Positions 837 to 57,672 of a stretch of 64,000 bases of DNA are shown piece after piece. The stretch is from Bacillus sp. CGMCC 1.16541 (GTDB taxonomy: Bacteria > Bacillota > Bacilli > Bacillales > Bacillaceae_H), in assembly GCF_003184905.1 (NCBI RefSeq), contig NZ_KZ821207.1:70894-134893 (forward strand), written 5' to 3'. Every line of letters begins with the position of its first letter. Position 1 is the first letter of the stretch. The position numbers and the translations under genes were made by a program. The notes beneath the pieces were generated by a model. It was not told the DNA's origin. It saw nothing but the letters and a program-made list of their open reading frames with translations, and did not search any database.

Positions 837-2264
837 ATGGCAATGAAATTTGGATCGGATAATTTTAAAGAACGTGTCGACAACGGAGTCAACAATACAT
901 TCATGCGATTTGCGGTCGCTGGTGCACAAGAACGTCTACGCACACGCCGTTTAGATGCAGCAGAAGAGTTAGGTAACTGGGAAGATTGGCGTGCATTAGG
1001 GGAAGAAATTCGTCAGCATACACTTGATAACCTCGATTACTATTTAGAGCAACTAACTGAAAATGTGGCAAAGCGTGGCGGTCACGTCTTTTTCGCACAA
1101 ACTGCGGAAGAAGCAAACGAATATATCACAAATGTTGCAAAACAAAAACAAGCAAAGAAAATCGTTAAATCAAAATCAATGGTCACCGAAGAAATCAACA
1201 TGAATCAAAATCTTGAAGCTATTGGCTGTGAGGTGATTGAAACAGATCTAGGCGAGTACATTTTACAAGTAGACGACCATGATCCACCGTCTCATATCGT
1301 TGCCCCAGCACTTCATAAAAACAAAGAGCAAATTCGCGATGTGTTTAAACAAAAATTAGCGTATAAAAAGACGGAAAAACCTGAAGAGCTTGCGCTTCAT
1401 GCACGAGAAATGCTGCGACAAGAGTTTTTATCAGCAGATATCGGTATTACAGGCTGTAACTTCGCCATTGCAGAGTCAGGTTCCATTAGTCTGGTCACAA
1501 ATGAAGGAAACGCACGACTGACAACGGCGCTACCGAAAACACAAATTACCGTTATGGGAATGGAGCGCATTGTTCCAACATTTGAAGAATTTGAAGTGCT
1601 TGTGAGCTTGCTGACGCGAAGTGCAGTAGGTCAGCGTTTAACGAGTTATGTGACAGCGTTAACGGGACCGAAAGATGAAGGAGATGTAGATGGTCCAGAA
1701 GAGTTTCATCTCGTGATTGTTGACAATGGCCGATCCGATATTTTAGGAACAGAGTTTCAATCGATTTTACAATGTATTCGCTGTGCAGCGTGTGTAAACG
1801 TTTGCCCTGTTTATCGCCACGTTGGTGGTCATTCATATGGATCCATTTACGCAGGTCCAATTGGTGCCGTACTTTCACCGTTGCTTGGTGGCTATGATGA
1901 TTACAAAGAGCTACCTTATGCATCTACGCTTTGCGGAGCTTGTACAGAAGCATGTCCTGTGAAAATTCCACTTCATGAATTGTTGCACAAACACCGTCAG
2001 CAAATCGTTGAAAAAGAAGGACGAGCACCAATCTCAGAGAAATTAGCGATGAAAGCATTCGGTTTAGGAGCCGCTTCTTCTACACTGTATCAAATGGGTT
2101 CAAAAGTCGCACCGACTGCGATGAATCCTTTTACAGTGGGAGATAAAATCTCAAAAGGACCAGGACCATTAAAAGCTTGGACAGAAATTCGCGAATTCCC
2201 TGCACCAAACAAAGAGCGTTTCCGAGACTGGTTCGACAATCGTGAGAAGGGAGAGAAATCATAA
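837..2264 (+). CDS. lutB: LutB, lactate oxidation ferredoxin-like protein B
   Basis: Second subunit of the LutABC lactate oxidation complex, 475 aa against about 479 in B. subtilis. The C-terminal half carries two ferredoxin-type 4Fe-4S clusters: [12 protein letters not shown] near residue 311 and [11 protein letters not shown] near residue 365. The N-terminal part is the LUD domain shared with LutC. AAAGGGG precedes the ATG. The stop overlaps the lutC start by one base (TAATG), which indicates translational coupling. Nothing is broken or unusual. Confidence 0.96.
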
Positions 2265-2986
2265 TGAGCGTTGGAACAATTCACAATCGAGAGCGCTTTT
2301 TAACGAACATTTCAAAACGATTAGGACGTGAACGTCGCACAGAAGGAGTGACACGACCAGAGTGGAAACATCAACCACAGCACGATGTATATAAAGGGTA
2401 TTCACTAGATCAGTTAAAAGAGCAGTTACAAGATCAGTGTACACGCATTCATACAGATTATGTTGAAACAACAAGTGTTAACCTTGTTTCTACACTAAAA
2501 AAAGTCGTTGATGTATATGGTGGAGGTCCGATTGTCACGTGGGATGATCCACGCTTTGCTGAGTTTGGTTTATCTCATTTACTAGGTGAAGAATGGCCGA
2601 ATGAAAACGTCGAGGTGCACGTTTGGGATAAGGAAAAAGGGCAAGAAAACATTGTGAAATCTGAAAAAGCCAATGTTGGTATTACGTTCAGTGATATGAC
2701 GCTTGCTGAATCCGGCACGGTCGTTTTATTTAGTGGAAACGGAAAAGGTCGTTCAGTGAGCTTATTACCAGCCACATACATTGCGATTATTCCTAAGAGT
2801 ACACTTGTGCCGCGTATCACACAAGCTGCTACGCACATTCATGAAGAAATTCAAGCAGGTCATGAAGTAGCATCATGTGTTAACTTTATAACTGGCCCAA
2901 GTAACTCAGCTGATATTGAAATGAACCTGGTTGTAGGAGTTCATGGCCCCATTAAAGCAACGTATATCATTGTGGATGATAAGTAA
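2264..2986 (+). CDS. lutC: LutC, lactate utilization protein C
   Basis: Third gene of the operon; a LUD-domain protein of 240 aa, the same length as the B. subtilis protein. No cysteine cluster motif is present, as usual for LutC. It overlaps lutB by one base and is followed within 5 bases by a strong terminator, so it closes the operon. The sequence around residues 140-190 (TLAESGTVVLFSG, then LLPATYIAIIP) is typical of the LUD fold. Its catalytic contribution within the complex is not resolved by sequence. Confidence 0.95.
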   Translation: MSVGTIHNRERFLTNISKRLGRERRTEGVTRPEWKHQPQHDVYKGYSLDQLKEQLQDQCTRIHTDYVETTSVNLVSTLKKVVDVYGGGPIVTWDDPRFAEFGLSHLLGEEWPNENVEVHVWDKEKGQENIVKSEKANVGITFSDMTLAESGTVVLFSGNGKGRSVSLLPATYIAIIPKSTLVPRITQAATHIHEEIQAGHEVASCVNFITGPSNSADIEMNLVVGVHGPIKATYIIVDDK

Positions 2987-2990
2987 AAAA

Positions 2991-3035
2991 AGAGCCTTAC
3001 CCAGCAATTAACAAAGTTGGGTAAGGCTCTTTTTG
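2991..3035 (+). terminator. Rho-independent terminator of lutABC
   Basis: A 13-bp perfect stem (2991-3003 with 3018-3030) with a 14-base loop is followed by TTTTT. It lies directly after lutC. Confidence 0.9.
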
Positions 3036-3302
3036 TCGTTTCTTTTATAATGAGAGAAATCTATATGCCTATTTTTACATAAGCAACGCTTCTTAACTAG
3101 GTAAAAAATCATAATTATATCTTACTATTTTCGAAAAATAATATATAATATAGAAATGTAAGAAAAGTTTGTTATTTTAAGGTGGAGAATGATTCATTCT
3201 TTTACTCAAAGCAGCAAAGGTTGTGTAAACATCGTTTATGAGTAGATATTGCTTCATAAAAGGTGGAACATAAAGTAGATTTGGCATAGGGGGATTAGTA
3301 GG

Positions 3303-11241: not shown

Positions 11242-11447
11242 AAGCCTCTTTCTGTTGTGAAAGAGGCTTGATCGCGTGCTCAAACCTCTTATCTGCCAGA
11301 AAGAATTCTTTCTGTTGGAATTAGCACCGTGCCTTCATGAACGAATAGTTCATAGCGCGTTGTTGCTGCGCTCCACCTTACGATGGTATTACGGTCGGTT
11401 GCTGGGCTTCATAGGGCCAAATCCCTCAGCCAACTCTTGATAAGAGT
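11242..11447 (-). ncRNA. SAM-I (S-box) riboswitch of mtnK-mtnA
   Basis: On the minus strand the leader opens with CTTATCAAGAG (near 11446) and contains the S-box core signatures GGCCCTATGAAGCCC, GGCAACC-like CAGCAACC and GGTGCTAATTCC, closing with AGATAAGAGG to form P1. A terminator follows (11242-11269, AAGCCTCTTTC pairing with its complement) 95 bases before mtnK. P3 and P4 are longer than in the other two copies. With SAM bound, the P1 stem favours the terminator. Confidence 0.95.
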
Positions 11448-13715: not shown

Positions 13716-13870
13716 TTCTTATCAAGAGCAGGTGGAGGGACTAGCCCGATGAAGCCCGGCAACCGACCTAACGAGTAATCGTTACGCACGGTGCTAATTC
13801 TTGCAGCGCAGAGCTGGGAGATAAGAAGAGCGGATTGAAGCCTCTTCTTATAGCGAAGGGGCTTTTTCTT
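13716..13870 (+). ncRNA. SAM-I (S-box) riboswitch of mtnWXBD
   Basis: A canonical S-box: CTTATCAAGAGCAGGTGGAG, GCCCGATGAAGCCCGGCAACC split over P2-P3, ACGGTGCTAATTC, then GGGAGATAAG closing P1. The expression platform is a terminator (AAGCCTCTTC with GAAGGGGCTT, 13838-13863) followed by TTTCTTTT. The mtnW start is 35 bases further on. This copy fits the consensus best of the three in the window. Confidence 0.97.
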
Positions 13871-22681: not shown

Positions 22682-22765
22682 ACCAAGGTGGACAAGGAAT
22701 AGGTAAAAAACGATGAACATGGTTTATACATCTTTAAAACATAAACATAGTCTTTTTGTAGAAAA

Positions 22766-22816
22766 ATCCCTGCTTATTTAGCCACTGATTAGATTGGACT
22801 TTAGAAGCAGGGATCT
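22766..22816. terminator. Bidirectional terminator between spo0E and the ZIP gene
   Basis: ATCCCTGCTT (22766-22775) pairs with AAGCAGGGAT (22805-22814). On the plus strand it is followed by CTTATTTATT, and on the minus strand by TTTTTC. It can serve both convergent genes. Confidence 0.8.
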
Positions 22817-22848
22817 TATTTATTGGCTTGTGTTCAAACATTGGTTTG

Positions 22849-23580
22849 TTAAAAAATTTGAATGAGGAAAATCATAAATAACAATCCTAAAATGAAAGAA
22901 TACGTAGCAAACCGCTCGTTCCCATCTCCGTGACTTTCCGGGATAAGCTCTTTGTAGATGATGAACAACATAGAGCCCGCTGCAAAAGCAAGTCCGTAAG
23001 AAACAAGTGAGTCAATATAAGCTGTTAAGTAAAAGCCGATTAGCGCTGTAATAATTTCGACAGCCCCTGTTAATGTAGCGATCACAAATGCTTTTAGCTT
23101 ACTAATCTTTTGCTGCACTAAAAATAAGGCCACTAATAAACCTTCCGGCGCATTTTGCAAACCAATTGCAAGTGCAATTAAATTCCCCGTATTCTCTACA
23201 TCTGACGCATAACTTACTCCGACTGAAAGACCTTCTGGTAAATTATGAAGCGTGATAGCAGCCACAATTAAGAGCGCTTTTTCATCAAACTGTATGCCTG
23301 TTTTCGAATGCTGCAAATCGATGTGTGGAATGTTTTGTTCCATTAAGGTTAATGTCACAACACCAAGCATAAGACCAATGGCTAATGCGGGAAATCCCCC
23401 TGCTTGCAGTGCTTCTGGAATTAAGCTCATTGTGGCAGCAGCCGTCATAATCCCCGCTGTTAAAGCTAACAAAACATCTCTCCATCGATGCGTTAACATA
23501 TTGTTCAAAAACAAAATGGGCAAAGCGCCGACTCCTGTTGAGAGGGCTGAAAGAATACTTCCTAATAGTACATCCTTCAT
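22849..23580 (-). CDS. ZIP-family metal transporter
   Basis: A 243-aa membrane protein with eight predicted helices, of the ZIP/GufA/ZupT family that moves zinc or other divalent cations into the cytoplasm. The TM4 metal motif is ITLHNLPEGLSVGVS and TM5 has LQNAPEGL, the usual HNLPEG/N-PEG pair. The ATG at 23580 has AAAGGAGAT upstream. Single gene with no metal regulator site recognised. Substrate choice (Zn, Fe, Mn) cannot be read from sequence. Confidence 0.88.
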   Translation of the reverse strand: MKDVLLGSILSALSTGVGALPILFLNNMLTHRWRDVLLALTAGIMTAAATMSLIPEALQAGGFPALAIGLMLGVVTLTLMEQNIPHIDLQHSKTGIQFDEKALLIVAAITLHNLPEGLSVGVSYASDVENTGNLIALAIGLQNAPEGLLVALFLVQQKISKLKAFVIATLTGAVEIITALIGFYLTAYIDSLVSYGLAFAAGSMLFIIYKELIPESHGDGNERFATYSFILGLLFMIFLIQIF

Positions 23581-23898
23581 AGGTAATCTCCTTTTATGCG
23601 AATCAATAATCATCCATAATTCTTATTATAAATCCGTTTTGATTCATGAGAAAGAAAAAAGAAAAAGTAAGTTTATCTTTTTTATGATACAACATATCTA
23701 TGAAAAGGTGAAAATATGCATTGAAAAGCCGTTGAATATGATATGAAATGTCAAAAAGTCCGAAGTGAAAGGTGCAAAAAATGTCGCTTAACAACGAAAT
23801 GTTCGGTAATATAAGGATAATAATAGGTCTATGTTCTTTTTAGTGGGTCTAAAGATTCATTGAACAACTATTCTTTATTAACTAGGATGTGATGATAA

Positions 23899-37799: not shown

Positions 37800-37946
37800 A
37801 TGAACAAACGTCTAGCAGTCAAACTATTTGGTTCACTTTTAGCGGTTATGTTGGTTACGGCTTGTAGCGGTCAAACAGAGGATCAACAAGAAGAAACACC
37901 AGAAACTGAGCAACAAGAAGAAACGGAAGAAGAGACAACCGAATAA
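37800..37946 (+). CDS. Small acidic lipoprotein
   Basis: A 48-aa lipoprotein precursor: basic N-terminus, hydrophobic helix and lipobox VTAC (Cys 22), leaving a mature chain of only 27 residues that is almost entirely Glu, Gln and Thr. GAAGGGAG precedes the ATG and TATAAT lies at 37725-37730 upstream. No family recognised. It probably sits on the outer face of the membrane. The conserved signal features make it a likely real gene despite its size. Confidence 0.7.
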   Translation: MNKRLAVKLFGSLLAVMLVTACSGQTEDQQEETPETEQQEETEEETTE

Positions 37947-37949
37947 ATT

Positions 37950-38052
37950 AGGAGCCAAGACAAAAGGGGCAAGGAACACCCCTGTTTGGCTCAGCCCACA
38001 ACGGCCCTTGCCATAAAATCCAGTCATATCAATGGATACAGAGGTAAGGGCC
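37950..38052. other. Two-hairpin structured element, copy A
   Basis: Begins a few bases after the lipoprotein stop. Hairpin 1: AGCCAA then GGGG (37966-37969) pairs with CCCC (37979-37982) then TTGGCT. Hairpin 2: GGCCCTTGCC (38003-38012) pairs with GGTAAGGGCC (38043-38052) around an internal ATAAAATCCAGTCATATC loop with AATGGAT. Copy B at 50696-50800 has the same layout with paired base changes. Hairpin 2 resembles elements at 42222 and 52982. Function unknown. Confidence 0.6.
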
Positions 38053-38099
38053 GCTGTATCTAAATCCACTTTTTAAGCTTAATTCCTTCTTAAAGACGA

Positions 38100-38291
38100 A
38101 CGATGACTTTTCTATAATTGTTAGGTTATAAGAACAAGTTCGTTCCATTATCTCCCGCAGAAGTCGAGTGCCTACGCTTCATTCCACCATTTTCTAAAAC
38201 TGTTTTCCGATTCAACAAAAGATCCGAACTATCAATAGGATAACCTATGATAGTTCGGATCTAACTGACTAAAAGACTTATATCCCAGTTT
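38100..38291 (-). repeat. About 190-bp 3' repeat element, copy 2
   Basis: Read on the minus strand it starts nine bases after the clpE stop with AAACTGGGATATAAG, then a terminator-like hairpin (GATCCGAACTATC pairing with GATAGTTCGGATC), and a distal block with GGAACGAACTTGTTCTTA. It is collinear with copy 1 at 31000-31192. The hairpin arms differ between copies but keep pairing. This element and copy A fill the 353-base gap 37947-38299. Confidence 0.8.
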
Positions 38292-38299
38292 CTTTTTCC

Positions 38300-40432
38300 T
38301 TAATTAGATGAAGAAGGTCGAACGATAATCGTGTCTTCTTCGACATCTATATACAGAGTAGCTATTGTTGTTTCGTCTAGTAGTAAATCTGTGATTCGAT
38401 CTTCTACTTGTTCTTGAATAACGCGGCGTAAAGGTCGTGCTCCGAAAGCTGGATGATACCCTAACTCGGCCATCTTTTCTTTGGCTGCGTCTGATATTGT
38501 AAGTGTCACTTGTTGTTCAGACAGCGTTTCCTGTAAGTCAACAAGTAACAAGTCGACAATCTTGACAAGGTCTTGCTTATCAAGGTGATTGAATTCAATG
38601 ATGGCATCAAAACGGTTTAAAAATTCAGGTTTGAAGTAAGATGATAACGAATCAAGAATGGATGCTTGTTTTAATGCATCATTGTTTGCTTCGAATCCAA
38701 CCGTAATTTTCTTTTCACCCACTCCAGCATTACTTGTCATGATAATGACCGTATCTTTAAAGCTTACAGTACGACCTTGACTATCTGTTAAACGACCATC
38801 TTCTAAAATTTGTAAAAACATATGCTGAACATCAGGGTGTGCTTTTTCAATTTCATCTAATAAGATGATGGAGTATGGGTTGCGGCGCACTTTTTCAGTT
38901 AATTGACCTGCTTCTTCATGGCCAACATAACCTGGAGGTGAACCGATTAATTTTGATACAGCATGTTTTTCCATATACTCGCTCATATCAAGGCGCACCA
39001 TCGCGTCTTTAGAGCCAAATAATTCTTCCGCTAACGTTTTTGTTAGCTCTGTTTTACCTACACCTGTTGGACCTACAAATAAAAATGAACCAATTGGACG
39101 GTGTTTAGCTTTTAAGCCAGCACGAGAGCGACGAACCGCTTTTGCGACTTTTTGTACGGCTTCTTGTTGACCAATTACTTTCTCTTGTAGATGATCAGCA
39201 AGGTGTTTCATTTTTGTTGTTTCATTCGCTTGAAGTTTCCCAACAGGAATCCCTGTTTTCTTTTCAATAATACGTTCAATCTGTGAAACATCAACAGTTG
39301 CTTCGCGGTTTGAATCATCCGTTAATTGCTTCTCAAGCTTCATTTCTTCATCACGAAGTTTTGCTGCAACTTCGTACTTTTCTTCTTTTAACGCGTCTTC
39401 TTTTTGTACAGAGATTTCTTTTAAACGATTTTCTACATCGTCTTTATTTGTCACACCAGCTTGTAAATTCATTTTCGAACCAGCTTCGTCTAATAAGTCA
39501 ATGGCTTTATCAGGTAAGAAACGGTCCTGAATATAACGATGTGACAGTGTGACACAAGCTTTGATGGCTTCGTCCGTAAAGGTTACGTTGTGGAAAGCTT
39601 CGTATTTCGATTGAATCCCTTTTAAAATTTCAATCGCTTCATCCACGGTAGGTTCATGAACCATAACTGGCTGAAAGCGACGTTCTAGAGCTGCATCTTT
39701 TTCAATGGCACGATACTCTTTTAACGTCGTTGCACCTACAAGTTGTAACTCTCCACGCGCAAGTGCTGGTTTTAAAATGTTTCCAGCATCCATTGAGCCT
39801 TCTGCAGATCCTGCACCAACAAGTAAATGGATTTCATCAATAAACAAAATCACGTTTTTACGTTGTTGCAGTTCAGTAATCAAGTGCTTCATACGTTCTT
39901 CGAATTGACCACGAATTCCTGTGTTAGCAACAAGCGATGCAACATCTAATAAATACACATCTTTATTGACTAGCTTTGAAGGAACGTCACCTTCTGCAAT
40001 TTTTAATGCTAGCCCTTCTGCAATCGCTGTTTTACCAACTCCAGGCTCACCAATTAATACAGGGTTGTTTTTATTGCGACGATTTAAAATTTCAATGACG
40101 CGTTCAATTTCATCGTCACGTCCAATCACAGGATCAATCAACCCAGTTTTCGCAATCTGTGTTAAGTTTCGGCCAAACTCATCTAACAATCCACCTCCGC
40201 CTTTTGATGGAGAAGGGGCTGTTTGTTTGGCTCCTGTTGGTTGCTCGTTGGCCATTTGATGGAATAATTCATCCATATTCATAAATCCACCACCTAATCC
40301 AGATGGAATTTTATATTGATTAACGACTTCTTGGTAACATTTATGACATAAACGATAGTGTTTCTTTTCATTATTGACTTGCATATTTAAATGAATCGTT
40401 GCGTGATGTTGATGACAGTTTTGACAAATCAT
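38300..40432 (-). CDS. clpE: ClpE, AAA+ unfoldase of the Clp protease
   Basis: A 710-aa Hsp100 ATPase that feeds ClpP with misfolded proteins under heat and other stress. The N-terminal zinc finger (CQNCHQHH at 3-10, CHKCYQE at 29-35) distinguishes ClpE from ClpC. Two AAA+ modules follow: [13 protein letters not shown] near 118 with FIDEIHLL, and [13 protein letters not shown] near 458 with [11 protein letters not shown], separated by a UVR-type coiled coil. B. subtilis ClpE is 699 aa and lies in the same neighbourhood. Two CtsR boxes overlap its promoter. Confidence 0.96.
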
Positions 40433-42193: not shown

Positions 42194-42221
42194 GACAACG
42201 AAATGTAGTGTTAGCTAACTA

Positions 42222-42276
42222 AACCCTTTGCCGATAAAATCGATTGCGATAATTGATAAGTTGGCAAGGGGTTTTG
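42222..42276 (+). terminator. Terminator of nhaC (hairpin family copy D)
   Basis: AACCCTTTGCC (42222-42232) pairs with GGCAAGGGGTT (42263-42273) with an internal GATAAAATCGATTGCGAT loop and TTGAT, followed by TTGTG. The arrangement matches copies A, B and C of the bulged hairpin family. Confidence 0.75.
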
Positions 42277-42486
42277 TGCATAAAATTTTTCTTCGTTTTC
42301 TGTTCACAAAAACGTTAATAAATCAATCTTAAAATTCTCTAGTCAGGTAACTCAAATACCTTTACTATAAAGATAAAAGGTCGAACACGTGCTGTCATAT
42401 TTATCCTATCCATCCAACAATTCTAAGGGTAATTTGCCAAGCAAGGATTCATCCTAATGATATAGACAACCGAGGAGAGGTTCATA

Positions 42487-46460: not shown

Positions 46461-46608
46461 AAATACATGCCGTCCTCTCCTATCATTCATTTTCCTTATA
46501 ACCATTCTTTGCAAAACTAAAACCTTTTTGAGTATAGTCTTTGCAAAAGCAATGTGGTATAGTAAACAAAGACAATTAAACAAAGAAGTCCGTACAACTC
46601 ATTTGTGC

Positions 46609-46644
46609 GGGAGAGGTTCGCGAACTCCCTCTATAAAAAACTAT
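46609..46644 (+). ncRNA. PreQ1-I riboswitch of queCDEF
   Basis: GAGAGGTTCGCGAACTCCCT followed by CTATAAAAAACTA is a near-perfect class I preQ1 aptamer: P1 stem, then the A-rich tail forming the H-type pseudoknot. A terminator follows at 46670. It should repress queuosine precursor synthesis when preQ1 is abundant. Confidence 0.95.
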
Positions 46645-46669
46645 AACCATTAATAAATGAGTGAATAAT

Positions 46670-49323: not shown

Positions 49324-49401
49324 CAAAGTGGCTGCCCCAAAGAGCGATACTTGAACGTTTCAATGAAGGAAGTTCAAGGAGAGGACGGGTCAGCCACTTT
49401 G
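49324..49401 (+). terminator. Long bulged hairpin after queF
   Basis: CAAAGTGGCTG (49324-49334) pairs with CAGCCACTTTG (49391-49401); inside, CTTGAAC (49350-49356) pairs with GTTCAAG (49372-49378). No T run follows, so it is a poor intrinsic terminator and may be a stabilising or regulatory structure between queF and the next gene. Confidence 0.55.
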
Positions 49402-49434
49402 ACTGCAATCATAATGAACAAAGAAGGTGAAAGA

Positions 49435-50136
49435 ATGTCGCAAAGATCAGCAGTAGTATTAGGAGCAAGTGGATTAGTAGGAAAAGAACTCTTGCAACTA
49501 TTACTTCAAAGTAAACTTTATCAACATGTGACAGTTCTCGTTCGAAATGAGCTTCCATTTCAGCATGAGAAATTGCGTCAAGTGGTAGTTGATTTTGGAC
49601 AATTAACGCAATATGAAGATGAGTTTGCCGTTGATGATGTGTATTGTTGTCTTGGAACAACAATGAAAAAAGCAAAAACAAAAGCAAAATTTATGAAAGT
49701 GGACTATGAATACCCATTATCAGCAGCGAAATGTGCTGAGAAAAAGAAAGCGAAAAACTTTCTAGCCATTACTGCGATTGGTGCAGACCTTCGTTCACCG
49801 TTTTTTTATAGTAAAGTAAAAGGACAAACAGAGGAAGATATTGCGAGTTTATATATTCGTTCAACACACTTCTTCCGTCCATCGTTATTGCTCGGAAAGC
49901 GAAACGAATTTCGTTTTGGTGAAAAAATAGGAGAATACTTCTTGAAAAGTTGTTCCTTTTTACTGATTGGTAAATATAGAAAGTATAAGCCAATTAAAGC
50001 GTGTAATGTTGCAAAATCGATGGTAGAAGCAGCTACACAAGATAAAGTAGGCGTTCACGTTCATGAAAGTAATGACATTTATACAGGTGAATGTTATTAC
50101 TCCTTTACGAATGGAAAACGTGTATTATCGAAATAA
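49435..50136 (+). CDS. NAD(P)-binding oxidoreductase, HTATIP2/YraR-like SDR
   Basis: A 233-aa atypical short-chain dehydrogenase. Cofactor motif VLGASGLVGKELLQ at about 8-21, then DDVYCCLGTT near 65 and the segment KVDYEYPLSAAKCAEKKKAK typical of this group. A Tyr and Lys in FFYSKVKGQTEE near 130 act as the catalytic pair. The ATG at 49435 has AAGAAGGTG upstream. Function unknown; the location behind queF may be incidental. Confidence 0.82.
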   Translation: MSQRSAVVLGASGLVGKELLQLLLQSKLYQHVTVLVRNELPFQHEKLRQVVVDFGQLTQYEDEFAVDDVYCCLGTTMKKAKTKAKFMKVDYEYPLSAAKCAEKKKAKNFLAITAIGADLRSPFFYSKVKGQTEEDIASLYIRSTHFFRPSLLLGKRNEFRFGEKIGEYFLKSCSFLLIGKYRKYKPIKACNVAKSMVEAATQDKVGVHVHESNDIYTGECYYSFTNGKRVLSK

Positions 50137-50190
50137 AAAGACGCTGAGACAATTAGGGGAAAGAACTTCCCTGTTGTCTCAGCGTCTTTT
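50137..50190. terminator. Bidirectional terminator
   Basis: AAAAGACGCTGAGACAA and TTGTCTCAGCGTCTTTT form a 17-bp perfect stem with inner GGGGAA/TTCCC pairing, flanked by A and T runs. It separates convergent genes. Confidence 0.9.
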
Positions 50191-50558: not shown

Positions 50559-50663
50559 ATGAAACAACAAGGAAGTAAAAAAGCTCAAAATTATGCGTAT
50601 CTCATGTATAAGTTAGGACTGATTAACGAACAGCAAAAAAATGAAATTTGCAAGTCAAAATAA
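50559..50663 (+). CDS. Small basic 34-aa protein
   Basis: A short frame of 34 codons with GAAGGGTG upstream of the ATG and TATAAT at 50518-50523. The peptide is rich in Lys, Gln and Asn, with a single cysteine near the end and a short amphipathic middle (AYLMYKLGLI). No family recognised. The structured element B starts about 33 bases after its stop, the same pattern as the tiny lipoprotein and element A. Confidence 0.5.
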   Translation: MKQQGSKKAQNYAYLMYKLGLINEQQKNEICKSK

Positions 50664-50695: not shown

Positions 50696-50800
50696 CGATA
50701 AAACAAAAAAAGAGGAAAAGAGCGCCTCCGATGTTTTGATCTGCAACACCTCTTGCCCATAAAGTACAGCCATACCAATGGATAGACAGGTGAGAGGTGT
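50696..50800. other. Two-hairpin structured element, copy B
   Basis: Hairpin 1: GAGG pairs with CCTC inside an outer GATAAAACA/TGTTTTGATC stem. Hairpin 2: ACACCTCT (50746-50753) pairs with AGAGGTGT (50793-50800), with an internal CCCATAAAGTACAGCCATAC loop and AATGGATAG. Order, bulges and loop sequences match copy A, while the stems differ by paired changes. On the minus strand hairpin 1 is followed by seven T, so it could also terminate ykvS transcripts. Confidence 0.6.
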
Positions 50801-50891
50801 TACAGCTCAACATGTTTTTTCATCTTTAATTCAATCTCTTTTTAGTAATCGCTTTCAGAGATATGTGTAATGGAGAAATGATTACTAGGCT

Positions 50892-52981: not shown

Positions 52982-53036
52982 CCCCAGCTGACAAATCTAG
53001 CCCACATACAATGGCTAGAGAGCTGGGGTTTTGTTT
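52982..53036 (+). terminator. Terminator hairpin, family copy C
   Basis: CCCCAGCT (52982-52989) pairs with AGCTGGGG (53021-53028), and an inner TCTAGCC pairs with GGCTAGA around CACATACAAT; GACAAA bulges on the 5' side. TTTTGTTTT follows, so it is a working terminator. The bulge and the loop with CAATGG match copies A and B. Confidence 0.82.
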
Positions 53037-57502: not shown

Positions 57503-57643
57503 AGCCTCTTTCTAAAAGAGGCATCGCTTTATATAAACGACTTATCTTTCAGAATAAAATCATTCTGCAGGAAGTAGCACCGTTCCACTAGGGGAGGTTG
57601 CTGGACATCGTAGGGCCTGGTCCCTCTGTCACTCTTGATAAGT
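57503..57643 (-). ncRNA. SAM-I (S-box) riboswitch of metNPQ
   Basis: On the minus strand: ACTTATCAAGAGT, GAGGGACCAGGCCCTACGATG, CCAGCAACC, ACGGTGCTACTTCC and AAGATAAGT give the P1-P4 core. A terminator (GCCTCTTTC with its complement, 57503-57522) followed by TTTTCTTTT is the expression platform. The metN start is 52 bases further. Deviations from consensus (ACGATGTCC in place of ATGAAGCCC) suggest possible tuning. Confidence 0.93.
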
Positions 57644-57672
57644 ATCTTATTCATTTTTTTTGAGATAATTGA

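Follow-up and report, generated by a model that had tools for sequence, protein, structure and literature searches.

We identified a family of short, structured repeats, initially noticed as four bulged hairpins in a 64,000-nucleotide stretch of the Bacillus sp. CGMCC 1.16541 genome (the window), whose members share a covarying structure, mostly stand 3' of genes and occupy few sites in common between sister species. We lean, with modest confidence, toward the reading that the two full copies in the window, A and B, belong to a non-autonomous element of the MITE type that replaces terminator hairpins in the manner of IS1272/IS1182. Plain terminators occupy several of the orthologous sites, and the ends of the element in a second genus resemble IS1182 repeats. 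The element presumably moves as DNA; an IS1182-type transposase may move it, and it may itself terminate transcription.

As we picture it, the element would be a unit of about 165 bp composed of two hairpins (H1 and H2) and a tail that ends in a rough inverted copy of the 5' arm of H1. It would insert at the stem-loop of intrinsic terminators, which would be replaced or partly deleted with no target duplication; insertion of this kind would explain why copies lie just 3' of genes and why what may be old A/T tracts border them. The element's own hairpins would then cap the 3' untranslated region (UTR) and might act as a terminator, on the minus strand via H1 and on the plus strand via H2 or the paired ends. 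Copies would decay in place, some of them persisting as H2-only hairpins, of which D may be an example.

Copies in the window

Covariance models were built from hand-chosen sequences, degenerate copies being excluded: R1 describes H2 (14 copies), R2 describes H1 (12 copies), and R3 (35 sequences) includes ten from the second genus. The features of the window are as follows.

37800..37946, plus strand: open reading frame (ORF) preceding element A, 48 aa, lipoprotein-like; the sister-species orthologue aligns and has the same stop
37951..37997, plus strand: hairpin H1 of element A, from folding and R2 (64.8 bits; A's H1 is part of R2)
37997..38062, plus strand: hairpin H2 of element A (R1 80.8 bits, R3 71.7 bits; A is in both models)
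38003-38012 with 38043-38052, plus strand: outer stem of A's H2; inner hairpin at 38018-38037
50559..50663, plus strand: ORF preceding element B, 34 aa; aligned in the sister species, same stop codon
50695..50742, plus strand: hairpin of element B at the H1 position, from folding; diverged in sequence, no R2 match listed
50742..50808, plus strand: hairpin H2 of element B (R1 68.4 bits, R3 59.1 bits; B is in both models)
42217..42282, plus strand: D, an H2-type copy without recognisable H1 (R1 35.3 bits, R3 46.4 bits; in neither model)
22755..22821, minus strand: additional H2-type copy (R3 43.0 bits, E 1.5e-8; in neither model)
52982..53036, plus strand: C, a bulged hairpin with a T run, membership not demonstrated (R3 17.3 bits, E 0.089)
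50140..50185, no strand assigned: H1-like palindrome, A run before and T run after (R2 39 bits, both strands)

A and B are full copies of the two-hairpin repeat, and D is a shorter relative. All four hairpins named in the initial annotation were found where it had placed them, and each outscored 200 of 200 shuffled sequences (z of -5.8 for A, -4.7 for B, -4.6 for C and -6.4 for D). The upstream hairpin that it had noticed in A and B is also present in both, and C and D carry a T run, whereas A and B have none immediately after the stem, which agrees with its count of two hairpins with T runs and two without. The layout that it held common to all four stands for A, B and D on their R3 scores, the E value of D being 2e-9 with a model built without it, and is not demonstrated for C; of the CATAYCAATGG-like loop ascribed to all, D lacks CAATGG (D has a short T run 3' of its stem). 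We regard C as marginal rather than as a demonstrated member because of its E value with R3 and because its R1 score with filters off (18.9 bits) has an E value of 5.9e-5 over a hand-chosen 201-base stretch only, which becomes about 0.02 when scaled to the window. The sister-species site aligned to C carries a different bulged hairpin. A plus-strand ORF does precede all four hairpins, although the distance given for it (10 to 45 bases) was only rough: from stop to hairpin, we measured 4, 31, 46 and 28 nt for A, B, C and D, respectively.

The copy at 22755-22821, which had been overlooked, sits 27 nt past the end of the minus-strand ORF 22849-23613. The palindrome at 50140-50185 is located behind ORF 49351-50136, and a weak R3 match was seen at 2982-3035 (27.6 bits). 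No named RNA class had been thought to fit these hairpins, and indeed Rfam gave no match at gathering score at A to D in a scan of the window, nor in four loci with copies; judged by E value, nothing credible was found in the 301 bases around A, and a distant blastn search with 801 bases around A returned no match in a plasmid collection. Elsewhere in the window, Rfam marks three SAM riboswitches and one PreQ1 riboswitch (11286-11446, 13716-13827, 57539-57644 and 46607-46650). Past element A (38060-38350), there are about 240 extra bases with another palindrome, followed by the tail-like sequence GACTTATATCCCAG; the aligned sister-species stretch lacks these bases, which are perhaps an insertion inside element A.

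Architecture and covariation

The plan of the element (H1, then H2, then the tail) has the same order in both genera, and H1 and H2 abut. Among 134 Metabacillus copies, motif recognition found H1 plus tail in 19, H1 only in 29, tail only in 9 and neither in 77, so that one or the other was seen in 57 (chance rates are about 2% for H1 and 0.04% for the tail). On these counts, complete composites are outnumbered, and many copies have diverged or been reduced. For the 52 nt that precede H2, the folding z fell below -2 in 38 of the 74 copies of one genome and 31 of the 59 of the other, against 4 and 5 downstream; an abutting upstream hairpin of nine pairs was found in 49 of 74 (31 expected), which is a poorer test than the z score.

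Compensatory change in the stems, another claim of the initial annotation, is borne out for the outer stem of H2. We aligned 35 chosen copies (19 from the CGMCC 1.16541 genome, 6 from Metabacillus iocasae and 10 from the second genus) with MAFFT and without structure; because sequence searches or R1 had supplied the copies, the sample is biased toward this structure. Across the two genera, 14 of the 15 outer pairs are changed on both sides, and 93.2% of the alignment cells pair; the covariation score of 0.558 compares with 0.227 for shuffled controls (0 of 500 reached it) and at most 0.174 for slid ones. The inner hairpin behaves differently: in the second genus, the outer stem is different and the inner hairpin near-identical, and four of the five inner pairs vary on one side only, the sequence being kept across both genera (the loop reads approximately GTMANAYCAA by eye). 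H1, examined on its own 12 copies, covaries weakly, with 5 double-change pairs versus 3.7 in shuffles.

The two ends of the element, considered as a single RNA stem, drew no support from a covariation test of their pairing (z of 1.1; 62 of 400). The flanks are hardly palindromic (z of 1.7, 19 of 400; with the arms, z of 2.5, 4 of 400). Both ends were recognized in 19 of the 134 Metabacillus copies, and the 6-nt flanks of these are 69% A on the left and 66% T on the right. Two further ideas, a kink-turn and a small ORF within H2, were weighed by eye only and dropped.

Copy number and distribution

A search of the CGMCC 1.16541 genome (3.97 Mb, 58 contigs) with A by blastn gave 26 matches, 22 of them besides A at an E value below 0.01. 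The expectation that the hairpins form a family with further copies proved correct, the covariance-model search giving dozens per genome in four genomes. In the CGMCC 1.16541 genome, R1 has at least 120 matches at E ≤ 10 and R2 at least 75 at E ≤ 1, many of the latter adjoining an R1 match; the 74 H2 sites considered below are the R1 matches of at least 31.5 bits, with opposite-strand duplicates removed. At an E value of 0.001, R1 has at least 84 matches in this genome and at least 97 in M. iocasae DSM 104297, a sister species of the same genus (Metabacillus), and none among the matches listed in the remaining eight of the ten Metabacillus genomes. A second genus of the same family is represented by two genomes (G012 and G013), in which R1 has at least 5 and at least 10 matches, and R3 at an E value of 1e-6 has at least 76 and at least 94. 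These genome counts (84, 97, 5 and 10 with R1, 76 and 94 with R3) contain both strands of some sites. For M. iocasae, 60 sites were used, at least 14 more listed sites of 34 bits or better being left out.

At the same E value, R3 has no match among those listed in G001, G010 and G014, and its single match in G003 was rejected, as it looks like an ordinary A/T-rich hairpin. When 299 genomes of the order were searched with R3 at 1e-7 and with stricter filters, there were matches in 3, all of the same genus as the CGMCC 1.16541 genome; no genome of the second genus is among those listed (undrawn or lost). A pattern scan of named genomes, a collection that possibly lacks the CGMCC 1.16541 genome, yielded eight stretches, three from M. 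iocasae and five from unrelated lineages; by eye, the surroundings of the latter five show no such hairpin, and they were set aside.

Placement and turnover between sister species

With ORFs of at least 60 aa as the gene context, the gene upstream shares the strand of the element at 62 of 74 CGMCC 1.16541 sites, 53 of 60 M. iocasae sites and 12 of the 13 second-genus sites examined. The 12 exceptions in the first genome include A and B, yet short same-strand ORFs precede both. Gaps between divergent genes hold only 2, 1 and 0 copies in the same three sets, and the median distance from stop to H2 (51, 48 and 58 nt, respectively) is about the length of H1. In gaps between codirectional genes, copies oriented with the genes outnumber those against them by 35 to 10 and by 29 to 5 in the two Metabacillus genomes. 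The plus-strand placement that had been taken for a feature of the four hairpins is incidental; copies follow genes of either strand.

Few sites are common to the sister species. Only 7 of the 60 M. iocasae sites coincide in place and orientation with one of the 74 in the CGMCC 1.16541 genome. Two more lie in the same gap as a copy in that genome but in the opposite orientation (G005 C9:10451 with G000 C17:80352, where the latter gap is convergent, and G005 C7:47306 with G000 C3:71425, where it is codirectional). One further M. iocasae site corresponds to a decayed H2 in the CGMCC 1.16541 genome, which indicates that the count of shared sites misses copies below the threshold. The H2 sequences of the seven shared pairs are 64 to 79% identical, and their flanking matches 77 to 93%; these copies have diverged, but hairpin and position are kept.

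We compared nine orthologous sites, namely, those of A, B and D and of six M. iocasae copies that fall in the CGMCC 1.16541 stretches examined. The sister species lacks the element at the sites of A, B and D. Five of the nine sites, those of A, of D and of three M. iocasae copies, are occupied instead by a plain hairpin with a T tract on the gene strand, which 0 or 1 of 100 shuffles reproduce. Opposite B and opposite one of the six M. iocasae copies, no plain terminator was seen in the other species, and at two of the six (C3:356100 and C3:339859), the CGMCC 1.16541 genome has a related H2-type hairpin. The stock scan for terminators had given no gene-strand site at six orthologous sites and one opposite-strand site at each of three. 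Because that scan counts the A/T tracts of palindromes into the stem, we devised a rule under which a stem must end at a G-C pair; the rule postdates the result of the stock scan, and 0 to 2 of 100 shuffles per site pass it. None of the compared sites gave a clean empty site with exact junctions.

One alternative to a mobile element is a structured RNA class of the 3' UTR, whose inner hairpin and loop would be bound by a protein or an RNA, making dozens of mRNAs one posttranscriptional group. We consider this possible but unlikely. The covarying outer stem, the lack of double change in most inner pairs across two genera, the persistence of hairpin and position in shared copies that have diverged, and the orientation of copies along the gene all speak for it. 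The several copies that have decayed or from which much of H2 is gone speak against it, as does the paucity of sites common to the sister species. High copy number, few shared sites, plain terminators at orthologous sites and IS-like ends (see below) lead us to prefer a mobile, terminator-replacing element to a stand-alone RNA class, and an RNA role for the inner hairpin would be compatible with such an element.

Termination

Copies occupy the places of terminators, which suggests a function at the 3' end. Neither the stock scan nor the stem-ending rule gave a gene-strand terminator at A or B, and the rule, which has a loop limit of 10 and so excludes bulged hairpins, gave none at C or D; the stock scan did place a minus-strand terminator in the H1 of A. 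In 95 of 134 copies, the end of the H2 stem is followed within 26 nt by a T-rich segment (6 of 8); this segment rarely adjoins the stem, its median offset being 11 to 15 nt in the four motif classes.

These observations also bear on a second alternative, which we judge unlikely: that the copies are ordinary intrinsic terminators with a common ancestor, which gene conversion, not transposition, has carried from one terminator to another. Right at the H2 stem, a T run is present in 18 of the 77 copies with neither H1 nor tail recognized, as a terminator would have it, and both the related H2-type hairpins opposite two M. iocasae copies and the H1-like sequence at 50140-50185, a simple palindrome flanked by A and T runs, fit the idea. 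However, such a T run is found in only 5 of the 48 copies with a recognized H1 (and in 0 of 9 with the tail only), matches are confined to 2 of 10 genomes of the genus, and the composite with its tail conserved in two genera exceeds the needs of a terminator.

The conserved inner hairpin is not explained by the MITE reading either, since a MITE needs only its ends. It would be explained if its sequence were kept because a trans-acting factor reads it; the element would then be a mobile 3'-UTR module that, by replacing terminators, gives dozens of mRNAs the same hairpin for a protein or an RNA to bind, so that transposition builds a posttranscriptional regulon. We consider this combination quite doubtful, but a hairpin whose sequence is preserved in two genera is in any case a concrete feature to test. 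Finally, replication through imperfect palindromes is liable to template switches that correct the palindrome, which might keep DNA stems perfect and so produce covariation without RNA selection; H1 and H2 are both long palindromes, but we find this very improbable as a full account, as it explains one observation only and leaves copy number, orientation and the conserved inner hairpin unaccounted for.

Relation to IS1182 and to other repeats

To return to the mobile, terminator-replacing element, its link to IS1182 comes mainly from the second genus. There, among 13 copies, 7 have a 5' end and 6 have a 3' end that matches IS1182 repeats at 13 or more of 18 positions; shuffled controls had means of 7 to 10 and maxima of 10 to 14 (300 shuffles), and for two of the six 3' ends (L148 and L151), a shuffle reached an equal score. 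Some copies match at one end only, and one (L143) at neither. In Metabacillus, the ends of the element resemble IS1182 repeats by eye only. G012 contains two IS1182-family copies with element-like end sequences, each end being itself a hairpin (by eye). One of these (L203, approximately 1330-3160) lies between the palindrome arms GAGGTTGAAG and CTTCAACCTC and is followed by H2-like sequence, again by eye; this IS appears to interrupt the H1 of a composite element.

TnSha1, a carrier of IS1272 (IS1182 family), is reported to occur only in hairpins, with partial deletion of the target and no duplication, and in both orientations at one target (PMC4923244); IS1272 has been proposed to replace the inverted repeat, older copies being found also in targets without one (PMC5678879). 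As in our proposal, the hairpins in which IS1272/TnSha1 insert include several confirmed terminators, no target duplication is described, and part or all of the target stem-loop is lost (PMC4923244, PMC5678879). Unlike the element described here, which has about 165 bp and no gene, IS1272/TnSha1 is autonomous, with a transposase; as these reports present it, it has no H2, and some of its targets are not inverted repeats. Placement, replaced terminators and the two inverted sites fit an IS1272-like mode. The distribution of transposases fits it poorly: IS1182 matches above the family cutoff are found in G012 and G013, but the 12 in the CGMCC 1.16541 genome all fall below it and are mostly fragments, M. 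iocasae has no match to IS1182 (E of 0.001) or DDE_Tnp_1_6 (E of 1e-10), and DDE_Tnp_1_6 also occurs in three genomes for which no copies are listed (G004, G007 and G015). The non-hairpin targets of IS1272, the IS1182 matches below the cutoff and the transposases of copy-free genomes lower our confidence in the MITE reading. If it is right, the element would be a natural case of a small mobile element swapping terminators genome-wide and a high-copy-number, nonautonomous counterpart to the hairpin-replacing mode of IS1272, and terminator turnover would become testable between sister species.

No description of this element or of an IS1182-type MITE was found among the titles and abstracts listed in searches of the open-license literature. 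The SPRITE, BOX and RUP repeats of pneumococcus are likewise small, high-copy-number, structured repeats with MITE features that are enriched between convergent genes; SPRITE, like the element, is terminator-like and lies near the 3' ends of genes, but it is described as one duplex followed by a U-rich tract (PMC3049150). These repeats are streptococcal, and the likeness is drawn from their description (PMC3049150). The bcr1-bcr18 repeats of the Bacillus cereus group are also dispersed and intergenic, some of them being MITE-like, and about half of the copies are transcribed, partly in UTRs; they belong to another genus, the parts of the report drawn on here do not mention terminator replacement, and the likeness is again by description only (PMC3446304). 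Bhal-1, Sta-1 and Efa-1, found by clustering, are intergenic stem-loop repeats of low-GC Gram-positive bacteria and are likened to the element on the same basis (PMC2267715). None of these known kinds accounts for an inner hairpin that is kept in sequence.

In two copies of the CGMCC 1.16541 genome (G000 C21:17398-17511, L090, and C3:148150-148263, L096), the apical loop of H2 contains a near-identical second palindrome (beginning GTGCACCCCAAATGTTAGAC), which we take to recall the ends of IS3/IS150.
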